Shown: one piece after another, positions 26,717 to 40,740 of the stretch
How the letters are laid out: every line of letters begins with the position of its first letter
How positions within the stretch are numbered: position 1 is the first letter of the stretch
Origin: Actinomarinicola tropica
GTDB lineage: Bacteria > Actinomycetota > Acidimicrobiia > Acidimicrobiales > SKKL01
Direction of reading: 5' to 3'
Assembly (NCBI RefSeq): GCF_009650215.1
Contig: NZ_CP045851.1
Coordinates: forward strand, 1,279,189 to 1,343,188
DNA length: 64,000 nt
The notes under the pieces: model-generated
Told to the model about the DNA's origin: nothing
What the model saw: only the letters and a program-made list of their open reading frames with translations
The model's database searches: none
Made by a program: the position numbers and the translations under genes

Positions 26717-28540
26717 TCAGCGGGCGCCGAAGCTCCCGCCGCCTCCGCCGCCCCCGCCGCCGGCCGAGAAGCCGCCGCCCGCGCCGCTGCCGCTCGACTG
26801 CGGCGTGGCGCTGGAGATCGCGGCGCCGCCGACGCTCGAGCCGAAGTCGCCGATCGAGCCCAGGCGGCCGTGCGCGCCCGATCGACCGGCCACGCCGACG
26901 TACCAGGGCGCCATGGCGCCGGGGCCCTCCTGGAGCACCTCGGGGAACCACACCTCGAGCCCCTCCAGCAGCTCCTCCGCCACGCCGAGCGCGACGGCCG
27001 CGACGAGGTACTGCTCCCACAGGACGAGGTGCCCGGCCGGTGCCTCGTCGAGGCGGGAGAAGTCCTCCATGTAGCGCTGGAGGCCCTTCCACTCGTGGTA
27101 GCGGCGGGCGCCGGCGGGCGTGCGGCTGCGGTGGAGGATCCCGAGCGGGAGGAGGACGAGCGCGGCCACGCCCGCCACGCCGGCCGCCACCCACGCCTCC
27201 ACCAGGAGGGCCCCGACGGCGAGTGCGACGAGGAGGACGACGATCAGGCCGTGGAGGAGGAACGCAGCCGTCTTGCCCCGTGCCACGTACCGGCGCGCGT
27301 CGAGGTCCTCCTTCACCTCGCGCTGGAACGACGTCCAGGTGCGGTGCGCCGCCTTCTGGTCGCTCTTGTTCCGGTCGACCAGCTCCTCCTGGGTGGTGAC
27401 GGGTCCGTCCTCGAAGAGCCAGTCGAGCAGCCGCCGCTCGAAGGGGCGGAGCTGGTCCTGCGGCGGTGGCGTCCGCACGAACCGGTGCTGGACCTCGTCG
27501 CGGCGCAACAGGCGCTCGACGGTGTACTCCTCGATGCGCAGGTGGCCCCGCCGGGCGAGGTCGAGCAGCGTCGCCGAGTAGGCGTCGGCGCCGATCGTGC
27601 CCCACGAGAGCAGCGCTGCCGCCACCGCCGGCGGGTCGTCGGGGACCTCGCGCCAGTAGTCGCCGAGGTCCTCGGGCCGCTTCGGGTCCTTGCCCCAGCG
27701 GCGCCAGATCATCCAGAACCCCCAGCCGCCGAGGGCGACGAGGGGCACGACGAGGACGTCGAGCGCCCGGGCGACGTCCTCGCGGAGCTCCTCGCGCCGT
27801 CGCTGCTCGTCGCGCCGGGCGTTGGCCTCGTCGGCCAGGCGTCCCTCCTCGTCGAGGATCGCCGGGAGCAGCTCGGCGTCGCCGGGGGGCACGTCGAAGC
27901 GCTCGACGGGCACGGCCAGGCGGGTCTCGACGAACTGGCCGGCGGGCACGCCGTCGACCCGGGCCGTGGCGATCGGGTCCTCGACCTCGATCACCCCGTC
28001 GAGCGGGCCGTGGGCCCACCCCCGCAGGCGGCCGGCGCCCTCGGGCACCGTGACGCGCGCCGTCCAGCTCCCGACGCTCGGCCCGTCGGTGCCGATCCAC
28101 TGCCGGTAGAGGTCGACGACGTCGCTGCCCACCTCGACGCCGTCGACGACCTCGTAGCGCAGCTCGTAGGTGCGGGTCCCCGAGCGGGCGGGCGCGATGT
28201 CCCACTCGAACAGCTCCGGGGTCTGCACGAGCGTGTCGAGGCGCTGGCCGTCCTCGTCGTACGCGGCGATCGAGGTGATGCGGCCGCTCCTCTCCGAGGG
28301 CTGGAACGAGCGCGTGCCGACGGTGAACGGCTGGCTGTCCGCGCCACGGAAGGTGTACGTGACCCGCTCGACGACCTCGAGTCGCCCGTCCGGGTGGAGC
28401 GTGGCCTCCACGTCGATGGCGTCGATCGACGCGGAGCGCTCCTGCGCCGCGGCGGGGTCGCCGACACCGACGACACCGACGAGGACGAGAAGGGCGAGGA
28501 GCAGCGCCGGGAGGCGACGGCCGCGGGTCGCGGCGGTCAC
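26717..28540 (-). CDS. DUF2207 membrane protein
   Basis: A 607-residue membrane protein with a signal peptide (about 1-32, ending DPAAAQ). An extracellular DUF2207 domain follows (about 38-240; [19 protein letters not shown] and [12 protein letters not shown] are typical), then one helix near 262-280 and a cytoplasmic part. A hydrophobic hairpin lies near 425-470, and the glycine/serine-rich C-terminal tail ends [17 protein letters not shown]2207 proteins are widespread in actinobacteria and of unknown function; the N-terminal fold may bind envelope components. The GTG start overlaps the stop of the upstream SDR gene as GTGA, tying it to that gene. The glycine-rich tail ending in Phe-Gly-Ala-Arg is a common family feature. 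Confidence 0.85.
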
Positions 28541-29322
28541 AGCGGCTGGGTGTAGCGGGCCTGGAGCCGGCGCATCCCGGCCAGCCAGCGATCGTGGTCC
28601 GTCGCCTTGCGCCGGACGTACTCGGCGACCTCGGGATGGGGGAGGATCAGGAAGCTCTCCTCGGCGAGACCGGCCACCACCGCGTCGGCGACCTCCTCGG
28701 GCTCCATCATCCCGTCCACGCCGGCGACGCCTCCCCCCTCGCTACCGGCGGTCATGTTGGTGCGCACCGCCTGCGGGCAGAGGACCGAGACGCGGATGCC
28801 CTGGTCGCCGTGGGTGACGGCCATCCACTCGGCGAGCGCCACCGCGGCGTGCTTCGTGACGGCGTAGGGCGCCGAACCGATCTGGGTGAGGAGCCCGGCC
28901 GCCGAGGCGGTGTTCAGCAGGTACCCCTCGCCCCGCTCGATCATCGCCGGGAGGGCGGCGCGGGCGGCGTACACGTGCGCCATCACGTTGATGTCGATGA
29001 TCCGACGCCAGTCGTCGTCGGGCACCTCGACGCCTCCGGCGATGCCGATCCCGGCGTTGGAGCAGACGAGGTCGACCGGCCCGATCGCCTCGGCGGCGGC
29101 GACCAGGTCGGCGACGTCGTCCTCGCGGGCCACGTCGCAGCGCCGGGTGACGACCTCCGCTGCACCGGCGCCGAGGTCGTCGGCGACCCGGCCGAGCGCG
29201 TCCTCGTCGAGGTCGCCGAGCACCAGGGCCCGGGCTCCCTCCGCGGCGAACCGGCGGGCCAGCGCCGCTCCGATCCCGTGCGCCGCGCCGGTGATGACGA
29301 CGATCCGATCCCTGAGGTCCAT
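28537..29322 (-). CDS. Short-chain dehydrogenase/reductase
   Basis: A 261-residue Rossmann-fold NAD(P)-dependent oxidoreductase. It has the cofactor motif [15 protein letters not shown], an acidic [10 protein letters not shown] strand suggesting NAD or F420-independent NADH use, the CSNAGIG segment, and the catalytic Ser with Tyr-x-x-x-Lys in YAVTKHAA. The start is the ATG 8 bases after a TAGCAT hexamer, which trims 32 non-homologous-looking residues. The end overlaps the DUF2207 gene by four bases, an unusual pairing of a metabolic enzyme with a membrane protein. The [11 protein letters not shown] tail occurs in SDRs linked to lipid or steroid metabolism. The substrate is unknown. Confidence 0.88.
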
Positions 29323-29330
29323 GCCGTCGG

Positions 29331-29336
29331 ATGCTA
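29331..29336 (-). promoter_or_regulatory. TAGCAT -10 hexamer of the SDR/DUF2207 unit
   Basis: TAGCAT ends 8 bases before the SDR ATG and supports that start over the longer frame. Confidence 0.55.
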
Positions 29337-29492
29337 GGTGTCCACGAGGGTGCGCCGAGGAGGTGGGCGTGAACCTCGGGTGATCGGGGAAGACGCGGGC
29401 ATGAAACGTCGTTGTCACGGATGGTCGCTATGGTGGCCTCCACGGATCGGGTCGGCCGATCCGACACCCCCAGCGAGCTCGGGAGGGATCGC

Positions 29493-29696: not shown

Positions 29697-31097
29697 TCAG
29701 ACCGCCGCCGACACCTCCTGGAGCGCGCCCACCACGGCGTCGCGCAGCAGCTCGGGTGCGGTGACCACCCCGGCGTCCACGTGGATGCCGAGGTCGACGC
29801 GCCCGTCGTAGGTCATCATCGTCACGTTCACCGGGGTCCCGACGAGGGGGCCGAGGGCGTGGGTGGAGATGATGCGTGCCCCAGCCACGTAGAGCGGGAA
29901 CGGCGCCGCGCGCACGTTGGAGCACACGAGGTCGGTCGCTCCGGTCTGGCGGCGGACGACCTCGGCGAGCACCCCGGTGGGGACCACCTCGGCCAGGCCG
30001 GCGAGGCGACCCATGAGCGAGGCGCCGGGCCGGTCGATCTCGGCGCGGAGCAGGTCAGCCACCTGGCGCAGGTGGGGTGAGGCCGCGAGGTCGTCGCCCG
30101 CCGGGAGGACGACGCGGATGGGGGCGAAGGCGTTCCCGCCGGTCCGGCTGTCGTGGCGGGTGCTGACGGGGACGGCGACGCGCAGTTCGGCGATCTGCTC
30201 CCCGTGCTGGCGGTGGTAGGAGGCGGCGCCGCGGAGGACCGCGGTGACGAACACGGCGTTCACCGACGTGCCGGTGCGCGTCGCGGCGGTGCGCACCGGC
30301 TCGAACGGCACCGAGCCGACGACCAGGCGCCGCCCGGCGCTCCGGTGCGCCCACAGGTCCGAACGCGCCGGGCCGGTGACGAGCAGCTGGCGTCGGAGGG
30401 CATCCACCGCCTCGACGGCGGCGCCGCCGGCCACCGCGAAGCGGCCGGGATCCGCGAGGCCCTCTGTCGTCCACCGCGTGGCCGCCGCCAGCTGGCGGGC
30501 GAGGTCGCCCGCACGCTCGGCGGTCCGCACGACCGCCCGTTCCACGCGCGTGCCCTCCGGCGGCGCCGGCCCGGCGACGAAGGGATCGGGCGCGGGGTCC
30601 GGCGCGTCGGGCCGCGGATCGACGTAGTGCTGGGACAATCGGATGCCGCCGACGCCGTCGGAGACCACGTGGTGCATCCGCTGGATCAGAGCGGCGCGAC
30701 CGCCGGGCACGCCCGTGACGACCTCCATGTCCCACAGCGGTCGATCGGGGTCGAACGGGGCGGCCACCAGGTCGGCGGCGCGGCCGAGGAGGGCCGGCTC
30801 GTCGGCGCCGTCCGCATCGGCCTCGGACCACCGCAGGTGGTGGTCGAGCGCGAAGCCCTCGTCGTCGCGCCACGTGGGAGGCGCGCCGGGTAGGACGGCG
30901 GGAGCGACGAGTCGCCGCAGCCGTGGGAGCGCGGCGACCGCGCCCGCCATGCGTCGTCGCAGGCGGTCGGGGTCGGGCTCGCCCTCGAGCAGGCTGATCG
31001 TGCCGAAGGCCGCCGAGAGACCGGGGTGGCCGCCGACGCGCCACATCAGCGACTCGAGGCCGGTGAGGGCGGTCCCTTCACGCTCGTCGTCGGGCAC
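29697..31097 (-). CDS. Wax ester synthase/diacylglycerol acyltransferase (WS/DGAT) family
   Basis: A 466-residue acyltransferase of the family that makes triacylglycerol or wax esters from acyl-CoA at the membrane surface. The catalytic HHxxxDG motif appears as MHHVVSDGVG near residue 141. The family's later segments are also present: a VNAVFVTAV-type helix, RVAVPVSTRHD and the conserved VCSNVRAAPFPLYVAGARI. Length matches the family norm of about 460. A TAGCCT hexamer lies 6 bases before the GTG start. Activity on neutral lipid is likely, but some paralogs are inactive. It supports a lipid-storing actinobacterium. Confidence 0.88.
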   Translation of the reverse strand: MPDDEREGTALTGLESLMWRVGGHPGLSAAFGTISLLEGEPDPDRLRRRMAGAVAALPRLRRLVAPAVLPGAPPTWRDDEGFALDHHLRWSEADADGADEPALLGRAADLVAAPFDPDRPLWDMEVVTGVPGGRAALIQRMHHVVSDGVGGIRLSQHYVDPRPDAPDPAPDPFVAGPAPPEGTRVERAVVRTAERAGDLARQLAAATRWTTEGLADPGRFAVAGGAAVEAVDALRRQLLVTGPARSDLWAHRSAGRRLVVGSVPFEPVRTAATRTGTSVNAVFVTAVLRGAASYHRQHGEQIAELRVAVPVSTRHDSRTGGNAFAPIRVVLPAGDDLAASPHLRQVADLLRAEIDRPGASLMGRLAGLAEVVPTGVLAEVVRRQTGATDLVCSNVRAAPFPLYVAGARIISTHALGPLVGTPVNVTMMTYDGRVDLGIHVDAGVVTAPELLRDAVVGALQEVSAAV

Positions 31098-31126: not shown

Positions 31127-31726
31127 TCAGCGGCGGATGGCGGTGTGCTTGAACTCGTTGAGCTGGGGCCAGCCGGTGAGCATGTCGACGATCCGCTCGA
31201 CGGTCGAGGTCGCGAGCTCGGCGTCGCCCCGTGGCGGCTCCATCAGCCGCACGAACACGGCGTCCGTCTCGCTCATGAACGTCGGCACGCCCCAGACCGA
31301 CAGGTCGCGGACCGACGCCTCGTGCTCCTCCTTGACCGTCGTCAGCGGGGCGCCGGTGGCGACCTCCTGGAGGATGGCGTCGGCGTCGAGCCCGGCGGCG
31401 TCGAGGACCTGGATGATCTCGCCCTTGTCGGAGAGGTCGCGAGCGTGGGTGTGGCGCAGCTCGAACAGCTCCCGGTGCACCGTGGGGAAGGCATCGGCGT
31501 GCTGGTCCCGCACGACCACCGACACCTGGAGGGCCAGGAGCCCCGAGTCGCGGTCCGGCTCGTCCCACACGTCGACGCCGCCGTCCTCGACGTGCGTCTG
31601 GCCGAGGGAGAACGGGACGAAGCGGACGTCCCAGTCGGCGCCGGCAGCGAGGCCCTCCAGCACGTGGAGGTGGGCGATGCGTGCGAACGGGCAGCGGTAG
31701 TCGTAGGTGAGCGCGAAGGAAGCCAT
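31127..31726 (-). CDS. DsbA-family protein (thioredoxin-like, FrnE/HCCA isomerase type)
   Basis: A 199-residue cytosolic thioredoxin-fold protein. It starts with a beta strand and the YDYRCPFARIAHLHVLE active-site region, which keeps a single Cys-Pro rather than CxxC, followed by a helical insertion and the cis-proline strand VWGVPTFMSE. A lone Cys argues against general disulfide oxidation and for a glutathione- or mycothiol-linked isomerase or transferase activity, as in 2-hydroxychromene-2-carboxylate isomerases. No ribosome site is seen at the ATG. It is probably a single gene; the next gene upstream ends about 90 bases away. Confidence 0.8.
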   Translation of the reverse strand: MASFALTYDYRCPFARIAHLHVLEGLAAGADWDVRFVPFSLGQTHVEDGGVDVWDEPDRDSGLLALQVSVVVRDQHADAFPTVHRELFELRHTHARDLSDKGEIIQVLDAAGLDADAILQEVATGAPLTTVKEEHEASVRDLSVWGVPTFMSETDAVFVRLMEPPRGDAELATSTVERIVDMLTGWPQLNEFKHTAIRR

Positions 31727-31813: not shown

Positions 31814-33268
31814 TCAGTCCCGGGGGAGCGGGGCGAGGCGCACGGCGGCCTCTCCGAGCACGATGCCGAGCACCGCGCCACCCACCACGTCGGAGGGGTG
31901 GTGGATGCGCACGTGGACCCTGCTCGTGGCGACGACGGCCGCGAGCGCGTACCAGAGCGGTCCGAGCCCGTTGCGGTCCGAGAGCAGCCGTGCCGCCATG
32001 AACGCCGAGCTGGCGTGCCCGCTCGGGAAGCTCGACGTGGCCGGCATCCGGAGGGTGTGCGGGCGCTCGCCGTCGTGGATCGGCCGCGTCCGGCGGAACA
32101 GCGACTTGATCGCCCCGTTCACCAGCGCCGACTCGATGCCGAGGCTCGTCGAGAGGCGGGCCGCCCTGCGGATGCCGTGGCGGCGGTCGGCCACCCCCTG
32201 GGCAGCACCGGCGAGGTGCCAGATCAGGCTCCAGTCCCCGAGCGCCGAGGCGGAGTAGAAGACCCGATCGACGACGGGGATGCCCCGCAGCCGCTCCCAG
32301 GCGCGGTCGATCTCGGCGTCGATCCGGCCGACGGCGTGGCCGAACCCGGGGGTGGCCGCGGCGACCGAGGCGGCGACGGGTTCGTCGTCGGTGTCCGGGG
32401 CGGGTGGGGGGAGCGGCGTGAACGAGCTGGTCTCCTCGAACGCCTCCCGGATCCGCGCTGCGATGCCGGCCGGGTCCTCGAGCGGGCCGAAGTGGCCGAG
32501 CTCGGGGTGTTCCTCCAGCCGTCCCATCGGGAGGCCGTCGGCGATGCGGGGGGCGATCGTGGCCGGGAACCCGCCGTCGCCTCCGGCGGCGATGGTGACC
32601 GGGCAGGCGATGTCGTCGAGGCGCTCGAAGGTGTCGTGCGTGCCGCTGCTCGAGTACACGGCGGCCTCGTCGACACCTCGGCACTTCAGCCGGACGGTGC
32701 CGTCGGCGAGGTCCTCGAAGCCGTGGTCGACGTAGGCACGGAGGCACGCGGGGTCGAGCGAGGCGAGAGGCGGCTTCGAGGCGTAGTTCCCGTAGGCGGC
32801 CTCCCGGGAGTCGAACACCTCGCGCCGGCGTCGAGCCCCCTCCGCGAGGGGGTTGGAGCCCTCGGCGGAACGCACCTCGAGGATCTCGGTGGGCAGGACG
32901 ATCGGCTCGAAGCACCAGAGGGACGCGAACGTGCCGGGTCGGGCCGCCTCGGCCATCAGCAGCGCGGCGCCGCCCTTGGAGTGGCCGACACCGAAGACCG
33001 GGCCCTCGACGACGAGGTCGTCGACCACGCTCAGCACGTCGCGGCCGAACCGGTTCCAGTCGAACTCGTGGTCCTCCGGCACCCGGGTGTCGCCGTGGCC
33101 CCGGAAGTCGATCGCCAGGCAGTGGAACATGTCGCCCAGGCGGTCGGCCAGGGGCTGCCAGACGCGACCGTGGAAGCCGGTGGCGTGGGCGAAGAGGAGC
33201 ACCGGACCGGTGCCCCCGAGGTCGTGGACGGCGACGTCGACGCCGTCGGGGGTGCGGACGCGGTGCAT
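31814..33268 (-). CDS. Fusion of alpha/beta hydrolase and PAP2-type lipid phosphatase
   Basis: A 484-residue two-domain protein. The N-terminal half (1-275) is an alpha/beta hydrolase with DFRGHGDT and the nucleophile elbow GVGHSKGG (Ser97), then LGHFGPLE with the likely catalytic His259. A proline- and acid-rich linker (about 283-300) leads to a PAP2/phosphatase domain (about 310-480). All three PAP2 signatures are present: KSLFRRTRP (388-396), FPSGHASSAF (PSGH 415-418) and SRVHVRIHHPSD (Ser449, Arg450, His456, Asp460). The PAP2 part should dephosphorylate a lipid phosphate or similar, and the hydrolase may cleave an ester of the same molecule. The start is the ATG after a CACGAT hexamer. 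One frame runs unbroken through both domains, so this is a real fusion here; the joint substrate is inference. Confidence 0.87.
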   Translation of the reverse strand: MHRVRTPDGVDVAVHDLGGTGPVLLFAHATGFHGRVWQPLADRLGDMFHCLAIDFRGHGDTRVPEDHEFDWNRFGRDVLSVVDDLVVEGPVFGVGHSKGGAALLMAEAARPGTFASLWCFEPIVLPTEILEVRSAEGSNPLAEGARRRREVFDSREAAYGNYASKPPLASLDPACLRAYVDHGFEDLADGTVRLKCRGVDEAAVYSSSGTHDTFERLDDIACPVTIAAGGDGGFPATIAPRIADGLPMGRLEEHPELGHFGPLEDPAGIAARIREAFEETSSFTPLPPPAPDTDDEPVAASVAAATPGFGHAVGRIDAEIDRAWERLRGIPVVDRVFYSASALGDWSLIWHLAGAAQGVADRRHGIRRAARLSTSLGIESALVNGAIKSLFRRTRPIHDGERPHTLRMPATSSFPSGHASSAFMAARLLSDRNGLGPLWYALAAVVATSRVHVRIHHPSDVVGGAVLGIVLGEAAVRLAPLPRD

Positions 33269-33305
33269 GCGCCCATCGTGGCGCAGCGGGGTCACGGGGT
33301 GCAGA

Positions 33306-34922
33306 TCAGCGTCCGAGCTCGGCCCGGGCGTGGGTGGTGAGACCCTTGTAGTCGACCTTGCCGTTGGCGGCCCGCCCGATGGTCGGCACGTAGACGACGT
33401 GGCGCGGTGCCTTGTAGGACGCGAGCCGGCCCTTCACGTGGGCGATCAGCTCGTTCTCGGCGGGCTGGCCGCCGTCCGCCGGCTCGACGACCGCGGTGAT
33501 CGCTTGGCCGAACTTCTCGTCGGGCACGCCCACGACGACGGCGTCGCGCACCTCGGGATGGGTCTTCAGCGCCTCCTCGACCTCCTCGGGGAAGACCTTC
33601 TCGCCGCCGGTGTTGATGCACACCGAGCCGCGTCCGAGGAGGGTGAGGGAGCCGTCGGCCTCGACCGTGGCGTAGTCGCCGGGCATCGAGTAGCGCTGGC
33701 CGTCGATGGTGATGAAGGTGGCCGCCGTCTTCTCCGGGTCCTTGTAGTAGCCGACCGGCACCCGGCCGGCGACGGCGACGCGACCGATGGTGCCCGAGCC
33801 CGGCTCCACGTCATGGCCGTCGTCGTCGATCACCCTGGCGTTCTGGCCGAGCGAGAACTTGGCGGTCTTGGCCGCGGCCCCGGCGGCCGAGACCGACTGG
33901 CCCATGCCGAGCGCCTCCGAGGAGGAGAACGCGTCGACGAGGAGCATCCCCGCGTGGTGGCGCAGCAGGCCCTCCTTGGTGGCCTCGCTCCACATCACGC
34001 CCGACGAGCTCATCATCTTCAGGCTCGAGATGTCCCAGCGGTCGGGCTGGGCGTCGAGCGCGGCGAGCATCGGCTTGGCGAAGGCGTCGCCGACGATCGC
34101 CGCGCCGTTGACGCCCTCCCGCTCGATCGTGTCGAGCATCTCGACCACGTCGAAGGTGCGACCCTCCATGGTGACGACCGTCCCGCCGGTGAGCATGCCG
34201 ATCAGCGCGTTGAACCAGCCCGTGCCGTGCATGAGGGGGCAGGCGGGGAGCACGACGAGCCCCTCGGCGAGCGAGTCGACGGCGGCGGCGACGTCGGTCG
34301 GGCCGGCGAACACCGGGTTGGTGTTGCCGCCGAGGATCGAGATGAGGTCGGTCTGGCGCCACATGACGCCCTTCGGCATGCCGGTGGTGCCGCCGGTGTA
34401 GAGCATGAGGATGTGGTCCCCGCTGCGGCCCCAGGGTGGGACGACGCGCTCGGTGGCGGCCGACGCCGCCTGCTCGTAGGGGATGGCCCAGTCGGGGCAG
34501 GGGCCGGTGCCGTCGTCGACCCAGATCCACGTGCGGACGTTCGGCACGCGGGGTCGCACCGCGTCGCAGCGGTCGGCGAAGCAACCGTGGAAGATCACCG
34601 CGACGGCGTCGGCGTTGTCCCAGAGGTAGGCGAGCTCGTCCTCGACGTAGCGGTAGTTGGTGTTCACCGGGACGAGCCCGGCTTTGAAGATCCCCATCTG
34701 GGACTCCATGTAGGCGTCGCAGTTGTAGAGGTACTGCGCGACCTTGTCCTGCTCGACCGCGCCGGCGTCGAGCAGCGTGCGGGCGATGCCGTCGGCGCGG
34801 CGGTCGGCCTCGGCCCACGTGCGGTGCACGTCCCCGTGCACCAGGAGGGTGCGGTCGCCGTAGCGGTCGGCGATGCCCTCGATGACGTCGGCGAAGTTCC
34901 AGTTCTCGGTGGTGTCCCCCAT
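33306..34922 (-). CDS. Acyl-CoA synthetase (AMP-forming, FadD-type)
   Basis: A 538-residue adenylating ligase that activates a carboxylic acid to its CoA thioester. The P-loop is LYTGGTTGMPKGVMW (about 179-193). The A5-type region is altered to VDAFSSSEALGMGQ, the hinge and A8 region is SLTLLGRGSVCINTGGEKVFPEEVEEAL, and the catalytic Lys is in GRAANGKVDYKGL near the end. MLYTGGTTGMPKGVMWR is typical of the mycobacterial FadD19/FadD3-like group used on steroid or branched acids. It is divergent from an acyl-CoA dehydrogenase with 45 bases between start codons and a shared palindrome, so the two are probably co-regulated. The substrate is unknown. Confidence 0.9.
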   Translation of the reverse strand: MGDTTENWNFADVIEGIADRYGDRTLLVHGDVHRTWAEADRRADGIARTLLDAGAVEQDKVAQYLYNCDAYMESQMGIFKAGLVPVNTNYRYVEDELAYLWDNADAVAVIFHGCFADRCDAVRPRVPNVRTWIWVDDGTGPCPDWAIPYEQAASAATERVVPPWGRSGDHILMLYTGGTTGMPKGVMWRQTDLISILGGNTNPVFAGPTDVAAAVDSLAEGLVVLPACPLMHGTGWFNALIGMLTGGTVVTMEGRTFDVVEMLDTIEREGVNGAAIVGDAFAKPMLAALDAQPDRWDISSLKMMSSSGVMWSEATKEGLLRHHAGMLLVDAFSSSEALGMGQSVSAAGAAAKTAKFSLGQNARVIDDDGHDVEPGSGTIGRVAVAGRVPVGYYKDPEKTAATFITIDGQRYSMPGDYATVEADGSLTLLGRGSVCINTGGEKVFPEEVEEALKTHPEVRDAVVVGVPDEKFGQAITAVVEPADGGQPAENELIAHVKGRLASYKAPRHVVYVPTIGRAANGKVDYKGLTTHARAELGR

Positions 34923-34967: not shown

Positions 34968-36089
34968 GTGGACTTCGACCTCCCCGCCGACGACGATCCG
35001 CGCCGGACCGAGGTGCGGGCGTGGCTCGCCGAGCACCCCTCGCCGACCGGCAGGGACCTGGCCGAGGCGGGATACGTCGCGCCGCACTGGCCCCGGCCCT
35101 ACGGCCTCGACGCCGACCCGATCACCCAGATCGTCATCGACGACGAGCTGGCCCGCGCCGGCGTGGTCCGGCCGTCGAACCCCATCGGCGTCGGCTGGGC
35201 GGGACCGACGATCCTCCACGCCGGCACCGAGGAGCAGAAGGCGCGCTACCTGCCGCCTCTGCTCTCCGGCGAGGAGGTGTGGTGCCAGCTCTTCAGCGAA
35301 CCCGGCGCCGGCTCGGACCTGGCCTCGCTGTCGACCCGCGCGGAGCGCGACGGCGACGAGTGGATCGTGAACGGCCAGAAGATCTGGACCTCGCTCGGGC
35401 ACCAGGCGACGTTCGGCATCCTCATCGCTCGCACCGACCCCGCGGCCCCGAAGCACCAGGGCATCTCCTACTTCGTGTGCCCCATGGACCTGCCCGGCAT
35501 CGAGGTCCGGCCCATCATCGAGATGACCGGCGGCCACACGTTCAACGAGGTGTTCTTCACCGACGTGCGGCTGCCCGCGGGGTCGCTCGTGGGCGACGAG
35601 CACCGGGGCTGGACGCTCGCGAAGGTCACCCTCGGCAACGAGCGGGTGTCGCTGTCGAGCGGCGGAGCCCTGTGGGGGAGGGGTCCGGTCGCCGAGGACC
35701 TGCTCGACGTGGTCCGCGCCGCCGGCGGCACGTCCGACCGCGTCCTGCGCCAGGAGCTCGCCCGGCTCCACATCGAATCGGAGATCCTCCGGCTCATCCG
35801 CCTGCGCACGGTCACCGCGGCGATCAAGGGCGAGCCGCCCGGGCCGGAGGCGTCGATCCGCAAGGTCCTGGCCGACGAGCACGGCCAGCGGATCATGGGC
35901 CTGGCCAAGGATCTGAGCGGCCCCGGCGGCATGCTGGCGGACCGCGGACCGCTCGGCTCCGACCCCGCCCTGTGGCACTACGGCTTCTTGTTCTCACCTG
36001 CGCTCACCGTCGGAGGTGGCACGGGGGAGGTCCAACGGAACATCATCTCCGAGCGCGTCCTGGGCCTGCCCCACGACCCCGACGTCTGA
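34968..36089 (+). CDS. Acyl-CoA dehydrogenase
   Basis: A 373-residue flavoprotein that should introduce a double bond into an acyl-CoA and pass electrons to ETF. Family segments are GWAGPTILHAGTEEQK, the FAD-binding WCQLFSEPGAGSDLA (ACADH signature 1 form), WIVNGQKIWTS, FNEVFFTDVRLPAG and the C-terminal GGGTGEVQRNIISERVLGLP. The region where most ACADs have a catalytic Glu reads GTGEVQRN, where the residue cannot be placed by eye. A GTG start lies 8 bases after a TAGTGT hexamer within a palindrome shared with the divergent acyl-CoA synthetase, so the two probably work in one pathway. A small gene follows 23 bases downstream. Length is slightly short but within the family. Confidence 0.9.
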   Translation: MDFDLPADDDPRRTEVRAWLAEHPSPTGRDLAEAGYVAPHWPRPYGLDADPITQIVIDDELARAGVVRPSNPIGVGWAGPTILHAGTEEQKARYLPPLLSGEEVWCQLFSEPGAGSDLASLSTRAERDGDEWIVNGQKIWTSLGHQATFGILIARTDPAAPKHQGISYFVCPMDLPGIEVRPIIEMTGGHTFNEVFFTDVRLPAGSLVGDEHRGWTLAKVTLGNERVSLSSGGALWGRGPVAEDLLDVVRAAGGTSDRVLRQELARLHIESEILRLIRLRTVTAAIKGEPPGPEASIRKVLADEHGQRIMGLAKDLSGPGGMLADRGPLGSDPALWHYGFLFSPALTVGGGTGEVQRNIISERVLGLPHDPDV

Positions 36090-37762: not shown

Positions 37763-38992
37763 CTAGGTCCGGTCCGACGGGACCGCAGGTGCGCCGGCGT
37801 ACGCGGGCGGGCCGCTGAGCGCGCCCCGGCGCCAGCGGCGTGGCGTCAGCGCGATGCCACGGGGGGAGTCCTCGAACAGCCAGCGGCCCACGTTGCGGCG
37901 CGTCCAGGGGTGCAGCCCGACGACGGCGATCGCCGCTTCGGCGCCCCACCGCTGGGCGAGGATCGTGCCGAGCGCGGACGCCATCCGGTGGTCCGCGGCG
38001 AGCTCGCGGCGCACCTCGTCGGTGTAGCGCCGGACGACGTCGGCGGCCGGAGCCCGGCCACCGGCGATGACGGCTTCCGCGGCCAGGCGTCCGGTGAGGA
38101 GGGCCTGACCGATCCCCTCGCCGGTCATCACGTCGGCGGCGCGTGCGGCGTCGCCGACGAACAGCGCCCGGCCGGTCCCGAGCGTCGCGGCGTCGATCCC
38201 CGCGGGGATCGGCCACGCCCGGTGCGGACCCTCGGGCTCGGCTCGAGGGCCGAGGACCCGCCGGATCGGTGCGCGCTCCAGGAGGTCGGGCCACAGGCGG
38301 GCGAGCGCGCCGCCGTCGAGGTGGTGCCCGCGCAGCACGCCGAAGCCGACGTTGGCCCCGCCGTCCGGGAGCGGGAACGACCAGGCGTAGCCGGGCAGCA
38401 GGTCGGGCTCGAACCAGACGTGGAGGTCGCGGGTGCCGGGTCCGGTGTCGCGGAAGTACTGCCGGAACGCGTGCCACTCGCCCCGGTAGCCGGGATCGTG
38501 GACGCCGAGCGCCTTGCGCAGCGGCGACCACATGCCGTCAGCCCCGATCGCCCAGCGGGCGCGCACCGGCTCGTGGCCCTCGACGGCCACCTCCACCGAG
38601 TCGTCGACACGCGTCGCCGAGCGGAGGGCCGCTCCCTCGAGGACCGTGACCCCCTCCGAGCGGGCGAGGTCGACGAGCGCAGCGTCGAGGTCGGCCCGGC
38701 GGGCGACCGCGGCGTACGTGCCCGGACCCTCGGGCAGCGGGAGGGTGACGATCCGGCGCGCGGGCGAGTGGAGGAACATCCGCGGCACGTCGATCCACGA
38801 CGCCACGTCCGCCGGTGGGAGTCCGAGCGCCTCCAGCTCGCGCAGGGCGAGCGTGGTGAGCCCGTCGCCGCAGGTCTTGTCGCGGGGGAACCTCGCCTTG
38901 TCGATGACGACCACGTCGAGCCCGGCCCGGTGCAACGTGAGCGCCGCCGCTGTGCCCGCCGGACCGGCGCCGACGACGACGACGTCGATCAT
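37763..38992 (-). CDS. Geranylgeranyl-reductase-family FAD oxidoreductase
   Basis: A 409-residue FAD enzyme of the geranylgeranyl reductase family. It has the dinucleotide motif VVVGAGPAGTAAALTL, then DKARFPRDKTCGDGLT, a substrate-strand region with AIGADGMWSPLRKALG, and the second FAD motif FVGDAARAADVMTGEGIGQAL. Such enzymes saturate isoprenoid double bonds, for example in menaquinone or carotenoid side chains, or hydroxylate aromatic substrates. The ATG overlaps the stop of the upstream VanW gene as ATGA, so the two are translated together. Reduction of an envelope isoprenoid or quinone is plausible but not shown. Confidence 0.87.
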   Translation of the reverse strand: MIDVVVVGAGPAGTAAALTLHRAGLDVVVIDKARFPRDKTCGDGLTTLALRELEALGLPPADVASWIDVPRMFLHSPARRIVTLPLPEGPGTYAAVARRADLDAALVDLARSEGVTVLEGAALRSATRVDDSVEVAVEGHEPVRARWAIGADGMWSPLRKALGVHDPGYRGEWHAFRQYFRDTGPGTRDLHVWFEPDLLPGYAWSFPLPDGGANVGFGVLRGHHLDGGALARLWPDLLERAPIRRVLGPRAEPEGPHRAWPIPAGIDAATLGTGRALFVGDAARAADVMTGEGIGQALLTGRLAAEAVIAGGRAPAADVVRRYTDEVRRELAADHRMASALGTILAQRWGAEAAIAVVGLHPWTRRNVGRWLFEDSPRGIALTPRRWRRGALSGPPAYAGAPAVPSDRT

Positions 38993-40740
38993 CCGCCGGC
39001 CTCGGGCGGCGGGGGAGCCGGGGGAGGGGGTGGCGGAGCGGCCGGCGCCGCGGGCTCGGTCGTCGGCACGCTCGACTCGCCCGAGCAGTTCTCGCCCTCG
39101 CGCCGGCGGTAGAGCGCGCCGACGGTGTCGACCTCGACGCGCCCGTCGAGGAAGCGCCGGGTGCGCTCGGTGCGCACGCGGGTGCACACGCCCTGGGGCT
39201 CGGTGGTCTGGCCTGTCTGCTCCACGTCGACGTGCTTCGTGGAGTAGAGGGTCACCGTGATCTCGGTGTCGGTGTAGCTCGGCCAGATGAGGACGCCGTA
39301 GGGGGAGGTGTTGCGGATCTGGAGGTCCGGGTGGGGCCACGACAACGTGGCCTCGCGCCCGTAGGGGTAGCGCGAGAAGTAGATCGAGTGGGCCTGGTAC
39401 TCGCCGAAGTCGAGCCCCGCGAAGAAGGCGGCGTTGAACAGCGTCGTGGTGAACTGCGAGATGCCGCCGCCGAGCTGGTCGACGACGACGCCGTTCGTGA
39501 TGCCGCCGGCGGGCAGGTAGCCCTTCTCGGCCGTGCGCTGGCCGACGTGCTCGTTGAGCGAGAACGTCTCGCCCGGTGGGATGACGACGCCGCGCGTGGC
39601 GTCGGCGATGAGGTGGATGTTCGTCACCCGGTTCTGGCAGCACGTGTGGGTGGTGGTGAAGCTCGCCACCTCCTCGACGATGCCGAGGCCCTCGGCCCAC
39701 TCCCGGTCCCGCTCGCTCTCGGCGGGGATGAGCTCGAGGTCGACGGTCTCGGCCCGGTCGTGGAGGGCGTCGTCGAGGCGTTCGACGCTGCCGTCGCCGC
39801 AGCAGGTCGTCGGGTTCTCGCCGCCGACGATCTGCACCACGCCGTCCTGCACGGTGAAGCTGGCGTCGGTGCCCGCCGTCCCGGCGTCGGCGTACAGCTC
39901 GGCGAGAGCGGGCGCCGCCAGCGACTCGTCGAGGGTCCAGTCGACCTCCGACGGGTCGTCGGCCTCGAGCACCAGCCACGACCGGAGGGCGGTCACGTCG
40001 AGGGGGCGCTCGACCGCACCCACCACGACCGTGGGCGGGGAGGCGGTGGCCGCTTCCGCGTCGCGCGCCGCGGCGTCGGCCTGCTCGTCGGACACGAGCG
40101 GGGCGATCTCGGTGAGCGGTGCGCGGACCCGGACGGTGTCGAGCGCGGGGTCCGCCGCGTCGGCTGCGTCCTGCAGGGCGTCGGCCAGGTCGGCGGCGTC
40201 GACACCGGCACCGGGCGTGCCGGCGACCGCCCGCACGCCGTTGGCGTCGCCCTCGAGCGACGGTTCGCTCGCCTCGGTGACGCCGGGCAGCTCCGTCTCG
40301 CTGAGCGAGGAGCGCAGGACGGACTCGTCGACCTGGTGGCGGAGGGGGACGTCGCGCTGGCCGACGAAGCTCCCGATCCAGCGGAAGGGGCGCGTCAGCA
40401 GAGGGCCCTCTCCCTCGTCGACCTGCTCGATGGTGGCGTCGTGGTCGACGCTCAGCCCGAGGGAGCGGGCGTCGGTGGTCGCGGTGCCGGACCCGGTGTC
40501 GAGGACGATGCGCAGGTCCTGGCGCTCGGCGGCGATCCGCTCGACGGCCCGTTCGAGGTCCTCGGCGTCGAGCCCGGAGATGTCCTCGCCGGCGAGGGTG
40601 ACGTTGCGCTCGACGTCCTCGCCGGCGAACCCGGGATCGAGGAAGGAGGCCGCCATCAGCAGGCCGTAGAGGAGCAGGAGCGCACCGGCGCCCCACACCA
40701 GGGCCCAGCGCCCCCTGATGGTCTGGAGCACGCGCGACAT
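38989..40740 (-). CDS. VanW-family protein with N-terminal membrane anchor
   Basis: A 583-residue envelope protein. One hydrophobic helix (about 13-32) precedes an extracellular region with two YoaR/PG-binding-4-like domains (VTLAGEDISGLDAEDLERAV near 47 and a second copy around 220-290). The VanW domain follows (about 345-490; FTTTHTCCQNRVTNIHLIA, PPGETFSLNEHVGQRT, VVDQLGGGISQFTTTLFNAAF). Paired cysteines occur in TTCCGD and HTCCQN. The tail is proline-rich and the protein ends in PPPPPPAPPPPEAGG. The domain has been linked to glycopeptide resistance clusters, but its function is unknown. The gene is coupled to the downstream FAD enzyme by ATGA. It probably acts on or binds peptidoglycan outside the membrane. 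Confidence 0.88.
   Translation of the reverse strand: MSRVLQTIRGRWALVWGAGALLLLYGLLMAASFLDPGFAGEDVERNVTLAGEDISGLDAEDLERAVERIAAERQDLRIVLDTGSGTATTDARSLGLSVDHDATIEQVDEGEGPLLTRPFRWIGSFVGQRDVPLRHQVDESVLRSSLSETELPGVTEASEPSLEGDANGVRAVAGTPGAGVDAADLADALQDAADAADPALDTVRVRAPLTEIAPLVSDEQADAAARDAEAATASPPTVVVGAVERPLDVTALRSWLVLEADDPSEVDWTLDESLAAPALAELYADAGTAGTDASFTVQDGVVQIVGGENPTTCCGDGSVERLDDALHDRAETVDLELIPAESERDREWAEGLGIVEEVASFTTTHTCCQNRVTNIHLIADATRGVVIPPGETFSLNEHVGQRTAEKGYLPAGGITNGVVVDQLGGGISQFTTTLFNAAFFAGLDFGEYQAHSIYFSRYPYGREATLSWPHPDLQIRNTSPYGVLIWPSYTDTEITVTLYSTKHVDVEQTGQTTEPQGVCTRVRTERTRRFLDGRVEVDTVGALYRRREGENCSGESSVPTTEPAAPAAPPPPPPAPPPPEAGG

Follow-up and report, generated by a model that had tools for sequence, protein, structure and literature searches.

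Enzymes of the PAP2 superfamily are reported to supply diacylglycerol for triacylglycerol in Streptomyces (PMC3599759) and in mycobacteria (PMC8225852). In the relevant passages of two further studies, no PF01569 occurs near PF03007 in the contigs covered (PMC10351704), and the Kennedy-pathway operons of R. jostii RHA1 are described with no PAP2 gene (PMC4850399). A HAD-acyltransferase fusion has been proposed as the phosphatidate phosphatase (PAP) in rhodococci (PMC4850399). PAP2 proteins that are soluble, and seemingly derived from membrane ancestors, have also been spoken of (PMC12419801).

Here we analyse a stretch of 64,000 nucleotides from Actinomarinicola tropica (referred to as the window), in which one gene encodes an alpha/beta hydrolase joined by a linker to a PAP2 phosphatase. 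Both enzyme families are well known, and the novelty is the joining alone. Narrow full-text searches found no Abhydrolase-PAP2 fusion in print.

A single reading frame joins two enzymes

The fused gene forms one uninterrupted frame (Table 1), and its product passes the Pfam cut-offs for both the alpha/beta hydrolase half and the PAP2 half. The single polypeptide with both families proposed in the sequence-only reading is thus confirmed, and the linker between the halves is rich in Pro and Asp, as had been stated. An alternative in-frame GTG lies upstream, at 33295, and would lengthen the fusion to 493 residues. Two competing long frames overlap the gene (602 aa on the minus strand and 731 aa on the plus strand), which is usual at 72-74% GC. 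We chose the 484-codon frame because homologs extend across both halves and GC3 is 0.90-1.00 in every full 40-codon block.

Table 1. Features of the fused gene and of its neighbours, in window positions.
Feature	Position	Strand	Remarks
Fused gene: alpha/beta hydrolase - linker - PAP2 phosphatase	31814..33268	-	single 484-codon frame plus stop; 484 aa
Alpha/beta hydrolase domain (Abhydrolase_6), residues 24-271	32456..33199	-	Pfam 58.0 bits, cut-off 26.3
Nucleophile Ser97 codon (GHSKGG)	32978..32980	-	identical in 49/49 rows; role from family
Glu121 codon, likely catalytic acid after strand 6	32906..32908	-	identical in 49/49 rows, and position in model; role inferred
Catalytic His259 codon	32492..32494	-	identical in 49/49 rows; role from family
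Pro/Asp-rich linker	32351..32425	-	about residues 282-306; without usual start or stop codon
PAP2 domain (PF01569), residues 372-478	31835..32155	-	Pfam 58.3 bits, cut-off 27.2
Acyl-CoA synthetase (FadD-like), upstream neighbour	33306..34922	-	NF005863 above cut-off; 37 nt before fusion
DSBA-like thioredoxin-fold protein, downstream neighbour	31127..31726	-	87 nt after fusion
WS/DGAT acyltransferase	29697..31097	-	PF03007; 29 nt after DSBA-like gene
Short-chain dehydrogenase (SDR), further downstream	28537..29418	-	
Acyl-CoA dehydrogenase, divergent	34968..36089	+	

The gene fusion is real. High-GC genomes may carry indel errors, and this general risk is the one point that we found in favor of a sequencing or assembly error having joined two genes. 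Against such an error, the coding strand has no ATG, GTG, or TTG in any of its three frames, and no frame-0 stop, from nt 781 to nt 1060 of the fused gene. After codon 248, the nearest of these starts in frame is codon 359, which falls within the first core helix of the PAP2 half; the scan covered ATG, GTG, and TTG and excluded CTG, which occurs in frame at codons 251, 327, and 348. A separate full-length PAP2 protein would therefore have no usual start near the position at which PAP2 starts in the relatives, nor would slippage by one base within the linker create one. An internal start for the PAP2 half was rejected for the same reason. The even GC3 along the frame and the agreement of a second genome of the genus (described below) also speak against an artefact, which we consider extremely improbable. 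The sequence-only reading had named resequencing that separates two genes as a possible outcome. This is unlikely, given the missing start codons and the contig ends of that second genome, both of which fall inside the linker with the same frame open.

Spread of the fusion

Three sets of genomes were searched with limits on E, which more distant or more diverged fusions could escape. Of 59 near genomes, counting the window's own, 56 gave a match at E <= 1e-20, and residues 1-484 were covered in one piece in the window's own genome only. Matches at E <= 1e-60 were found in 177 of 298 genomes of the order; among the matches listed, the window's own genome alone spans both halves free of stops, and in two others (G202 and G250) both halves share one frame with one stop between them. 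The 396 genomes of the phylum, a draw overlapping that of the order, gave 26 matches at E <= 1e-45, and the only uninterrupted one among those listed is again the window's own. As far as seen, the fusion is confined to one genus, with a second genome of that genus (G001) probably carrying it as well.

The G001 assembly carries the two matches on different contigs: the hydrolase match stops 3 nt short of the end of C36 (60,740 nt), and only 6 nt lie between the start of the PAP2 match and the end of C115 (12,153 nt). Within the linker, both ends stay open in one frame. They show no strict end-to-end overlap of at least 9 nt; the final 20 nt of one end equal nt 2-21 of the other, again in the same frame. 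A GTG near that end of C115 could act as a start for PAP2. The arrangement of these ends suggests that G001 carries the fusion and that its assembly broke at a short repeat. The window's fusion and its counterpart in G001 are only 70% identical.

The PAP2 half

The motif forms of the PAP2 superfamily are KX6RP, PSGH, and SRX5HX3D, and the PAP2 half carries all three, with its 11 motif residues kept. All 50 rows of the PAP2 alignment (A3) agree at K388, R395, P396, P415-S416-G417-H418, S449, R450, H456, and D460; this alignment consists of 49 of 51 rows and the window, with L010 omitted as short and L055 as a near-copy of L054. A joint alignment (A1), in which the fusion was aligned with every relative of either half, proved wrong, as its hydrolase rows showed 10-20% identity to the fusion against 37-67% in the separate hydrolase alignment (A2), and it was replaced by A2 and A3.

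The two halves were modelled separately. The AlphaFold2 model of residues 300-484 (pLDDT 93.0) contains one N-terminal helix and five core helices, with the PAP2 half starting near residue 307 and the first core helix near residue 331. Foldseek placed B. subtilis PgpB (5jki, E 1.3e-5) and Aquifex LpxE (6ebu, E 1.7e-4) nearest to this half, both at only 24-26% identity, followed by acid phosphatases of similar TM-score. The acid phosphatases are soluble. PgpB (according to the title of 5jki) and LpxE are transmembrane enzymes, whereas the PAP2 family of the fusion is hydrophilic.

Hydrophobicity was scored as 19-residue Kyte-Doolittle means, for which 1.6 is the usual limit. The fusion has one peak at or above 1.6, against four each in PgpB, YbjG, and the genome paralog L001, and two in the first 320 residues of the paralog L002. 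Among 50 PAP2 family members, none of the five core helices exceeds the limit in 30, one does in 15, two in four, and three in one; this scoring covered helices with at least 15 residues left after gaps. The hydrolase half has no strongly hydrophobic segment on the same scale. Membrane insertion of the PAP2 family is thus doubtful, and since the family is so markedly hydrophilic, a substrate in the bilayer is not assured. If the five core helices were inserted, their number would place the N-terminus and the PAP2 active site on the same side; with no hydrophobic segment at the N-terminus, the fused hydrolase domain would then be cytosolic and the PAP2 site would lie at the cytosolic face.

The nearest named models of the PAP2 half are the undecaprenyl-diphosphatase equivalogs of NCBIfam, whose scores fall well short of the cut-offs (34.8 against 229 bits and 30.5 against 250 bits). 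These scores, with PgpB and LpxE as the nearest structures, lend something to the idea that the substrate of the PAP2 half is a prenyl or sugar-lipid phosphate, in the recycling of a cell-envelope carrier, while the hydrolase acts on something unrelated. Yet two matches to BacA/UppP and a further PAP2 of greater hydrophobicity are present in the genome, and several neighbours of the fusion are lipid genes, so we regard this as quite improbable. The narrower proposal that the fusion is the sole undecaprenyl-diphosphatase was rejected in view of the two BacA.

The paralog L002 (C1:595431-595766, minus strand, of the window's own genome) is a further PAP2 domain, lying in an 883-codon frame. Hydrophobic segments and a weak match to a protein kinase (23.8 bits, under the cut-off of 31.7) occur in the part of the frame that was scanned (805 aa). 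It is a second multi-domain PAP2 protein of the same genome.

The hydrolase half

The AlphaFold2 model of residues 1-285 has a pLDDT of 96.7. The sequence-only reading held that all catalytic residues of both families are present. This stands for the PAP2 motif set, Ser97, and His259; the Asp past strand 7 (D231), in contrast, is kept in only 11 of the 49 rows of the hydrolase alignment (48 of 51 relatives and the window; L019, L034, and L082 omitted as short). In the model, D231 follows the strand of residues 224-229, and Glu121 comes directly past the strand of residues 116-120. Since Glu121 is kept in all 49 rows and stands directly after strand 6, it is probably the acid of the hydrolase in place of the beta-7 Asp. 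With Glu121 as the acid, as its place and conservation suggest, the Ser-acid-His triad of the alpha/beta hydrolase superfamily is present.

No particular substrate follows from the alpha/beta fold, which is too general for that. Foldseek matched the hydrolase half to E-2-(acetamidomethylene)succinate hydrolase (3kxp) at E 1.8e-19. This enzyme and a Thermogutta esterase (4uhc) resemble the half in fold or sequence at 20-23% identity, and a monoglyceride lipase is among its sequence relatives. Their substrates are diverse, and the half is assigned to the superfamily level only. Its scores reached the cut-off of none of the named hydrolase models of NCBIfam: the best was 64.3 bits against 390 (the exception model PcaDC), and the best equivalog, BchO, gave 56.8 against 172.55.

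These relatives bear on the scheme offered by the sequence-only reading, in which the same lipid phosphate loses an acyl chain to the hydrolase and its phosphate to the PAP2 half, for example from phosphatidate to monoacylglycerol or glycerol. The intact catalytic sets of both halves and the monoglyceride lipase among the relatives agree with it. Esterases and hydrolases of many other substrates match equally well or better, however, and among the matches listed for the order and phylum genomes the fusion appears in no other genus. We consider the scheme improbable.

Gene order in unfused relatives and the proposed route to fusion

The statement that hydrolase and PAP2 are known as separate proteins agrees with the relatives examined, in which they are separate genes. 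After removal of four loci whose PAP2 DNA is identical to that of another (L084, L092, L101, and L112), 60 loci were left, including the window's own. Neighbours were sought with single window proteins (for the nuclease, that of L067) at E <= 1e-12. The counts below refer to loci with enough flanking sequence, the window's own excluded; long flanks came from 33 of the 55 other matching near genomes and from 10 order genomes, so that the counts describe a non-random sample.

A hydrolase gene lies upstream, within 2.5 kb of the related PAP2 gene, at 39 of 57 loci, and a PD-(D/E)XK nuclease gene lies just upstream of PAP2 at 35 of 57. The nuclease stands between hydrolase and PAP2 in 30 of the 39 neighbouring pairs. 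It is about 280 aa long and carries domain PF12705 (118-128 bits) in the three cases tested; one example is L067:9476-10318. No nuclease lies at this place in G000-G003 and G043, and their matches elsewhere, just 32-35% identical, are read as likely paralogs. In G002 and G003, from a sister genus of the same family, the hydrolase and PAP2 genes overlap by 4 nt (ATGA and GTGA). Other direct neighbours overlap at TTGA (L039, L041) or TGATG (L048, L074), or are 3-6 nt apart (L035, L036, L111, L112).

A tree was built from the concatenated hydrolase-PAP2 pairs of the 34 loci having both genes. The two fused rows group together in this unrooted tree (SH-aLRT 98), nested in a clade with G002 and G003 (SH-aLRT 99). 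Eight direct-neighbour rows occupy four places, and the remaining 24 rows carry the label of an intervening nuclease, which was given by default to every row off the list of direct pairs, including L080, where the hydrolase is 10.8 kb away. The locus L040 (QEUP01000001.1), from a record titled Acidobacteria, has the order hydrolase - nuclease - PAP2 and groups with Acidimicrobiales rows; it may be a misnamed bin.

The simplest reading of this unrooted tree is a passage from an intervening nuclease to direct neighbours to a fused gene. The ancestral order would have been hydrolase - nuclease - PAP2. The nuclease gene would then have been lost, with hydrolase and PAP2 coming to overlap by 4 nt, and loss of the stop and the start would have left a linker joining the halves. 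A series from separated through overlapping to fused genes is readable in the relatives.

The same series raises the possibility that translationally coupled neighbours merged by loss of the stop and start with no gain, the halves keeping unrelated jobs. The restriction to one genus among the matches listed (298 order and 396 phylum genomes, overlapping draws) fits this, as do the frequent intervening nuclease and the overlapping or short-gap direct neighbours, which occur in four places of the tree, three of them lacking a fusion. Against it, the motif residues of both halves are all kept, and the second species of the genus appears to retain the fusion at an identity as low as that given above. 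We judge a neutral merger somewhat unlikely, though it deserves serious weight.

Gene neighbourhood

FadD, the fusion, the DsbA-like gene, and WS/DGAT form a tight minus-strand array with gaps of 37, 87, and 29 nt. At E <= 0.001, PF03007 has no match in the 3.7-Mb genome other than this WS/DGAT. FadD, WS/DGAT, and the acyl-CoA dehydrogenase surround the fusion, which bears out the lipid setting. Scans for promoters and terminators found none. Elsewhere in the window, 38989-40740 (minus strand) encodes a VanW-domain protein with a peptidoglycan-binding match just under the cut-off, and 26717-28540 (minus strand) encodes a DUF2207 membrane protein with a glycine-rich C-terminus.

Among related PAP2 loci, a DsbA-like gene lies within 1.5 kb downstream at 22 of 55 and was not found at 33. 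A WS/DGAT gene lies within 4.5 kb downstream at 19 of 48 and was not found at 29. An SDR gene occurs within 7 kb at 7 of 21 loci and was not used as evidence; SDR and FadD are large families, and some of the neighbour matches may be other members. Loci lacking the neighbour thus outnumber those having it for DsbA-like, WS/DGAT, and SDR, and the reverse holds for the hydrolase and the nuclease. In five genomes picked for the PAP2 half as best match (L116-L120), none of the neighbours sought was found.

Proposed function

On the basis of this neighbourhood, we tentatively read the fusion as a bifunctional neutral-lipid enzyme whose PAP2 half supplies diacylglycerol to WS/DGAT, a reading to which we give somewhat less than even confidence. 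The PAP2 half would dephosphorylate phosphatidate or lysophosphatidate, and the resulting diacylglycerol or monoacylglycerol would serve the WS/DGAT, whose gene lies two places downstream. The hydrolase half, with Ser97, Glu121, and His259, would act within the same lipid pool, cleaving an acyl ester or thioester, and the released acid would be re-activated by the FadD encoded upstream. The two activities would be coupled, and both active centres would lie on the cytosolic side.

Several findings count against this reading. With a nuclease between them in most neighbouring pairs, the closeness of hydrolase and PAP2 need not be functional, nor need it imply a shared reaction. The genome also holds two further PAP2 matches over the cut-off. 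At C1:1672681-1673805, moreover, a single 474-codon frame matches both a HAD phosphatase and an acyltransferase; it resembles the PlsC-HAD fusion of rhodococci (PMC4850399) and is a possible other PAP. The hydrophilic character of the PAP2 family and the many related loci at which WS/DGAT or the DsbA-like gene was not found count against the reading as well.

A more specific form of the neutral-lipid reading, which we consider rather unlikely, is that this PAP2 branch is partly or wholly off the membrane, serving as the cytosolic phosphatidate phosphatase of an Acidimicrobiales triacylglycerol cluster and joined here to a lipase that recycles the same acyl chains. If true, it would fill the PAP step that was not found beside WS/DGAT genes earlier. 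Taken with its unfused relatives, the fusion draws attention to a PAP2 family that often lies near WS/DGAT (at the 19 of 48 loci given above) and is a candidate phosphatase of fat storage in Acidimicrobiia. The fusion itself is a small, recent variation on known enzymes, a modest new domain combination with a readable origin.

Comparison with known systems

Lpp-alpha and Lpp-beta of Streptomyces and MSMEG_0634/Rv0308 of mycobacteria likewise belong to the PAP2 superfamily and are proposed to convert phosphatidate to diacylglycerol for triacylglycerol (PMC3599759, PMC8225852). The likeness to the fusion lies in the superfamily and the proposed step, and the passages describing these enzymes mention no fusion to a hydrolase (PMC3599759, PMC8225852). 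Streptomyces Lpp activity is described in membrane fractions (PMC3599759), whereas the PAP2 family of the fusion is hydrophilic.

Two other described proteins combine a phosphatase with a second lipid enzyme. The actinobacterial MSMEG_0633-type protein also joins PAP2 to a second lipid-enzyme domain (PMC8225852), but its partner is a lipid kinase, a diacylglycerol kinase, in place of the alpha/beta hydrolase found here. In the rhodococcal PlsC-HAD protein, a presumed phosphatidate phosphatase is fused to another Kennedy pathway enzyme, in an operon with the WS/DGAT gene atf9 (PMC4850399). Its phosphatase is of the HAD superfamily and its partner an acyltransferase, unlike the PAP2-hydrolase fusion described here.
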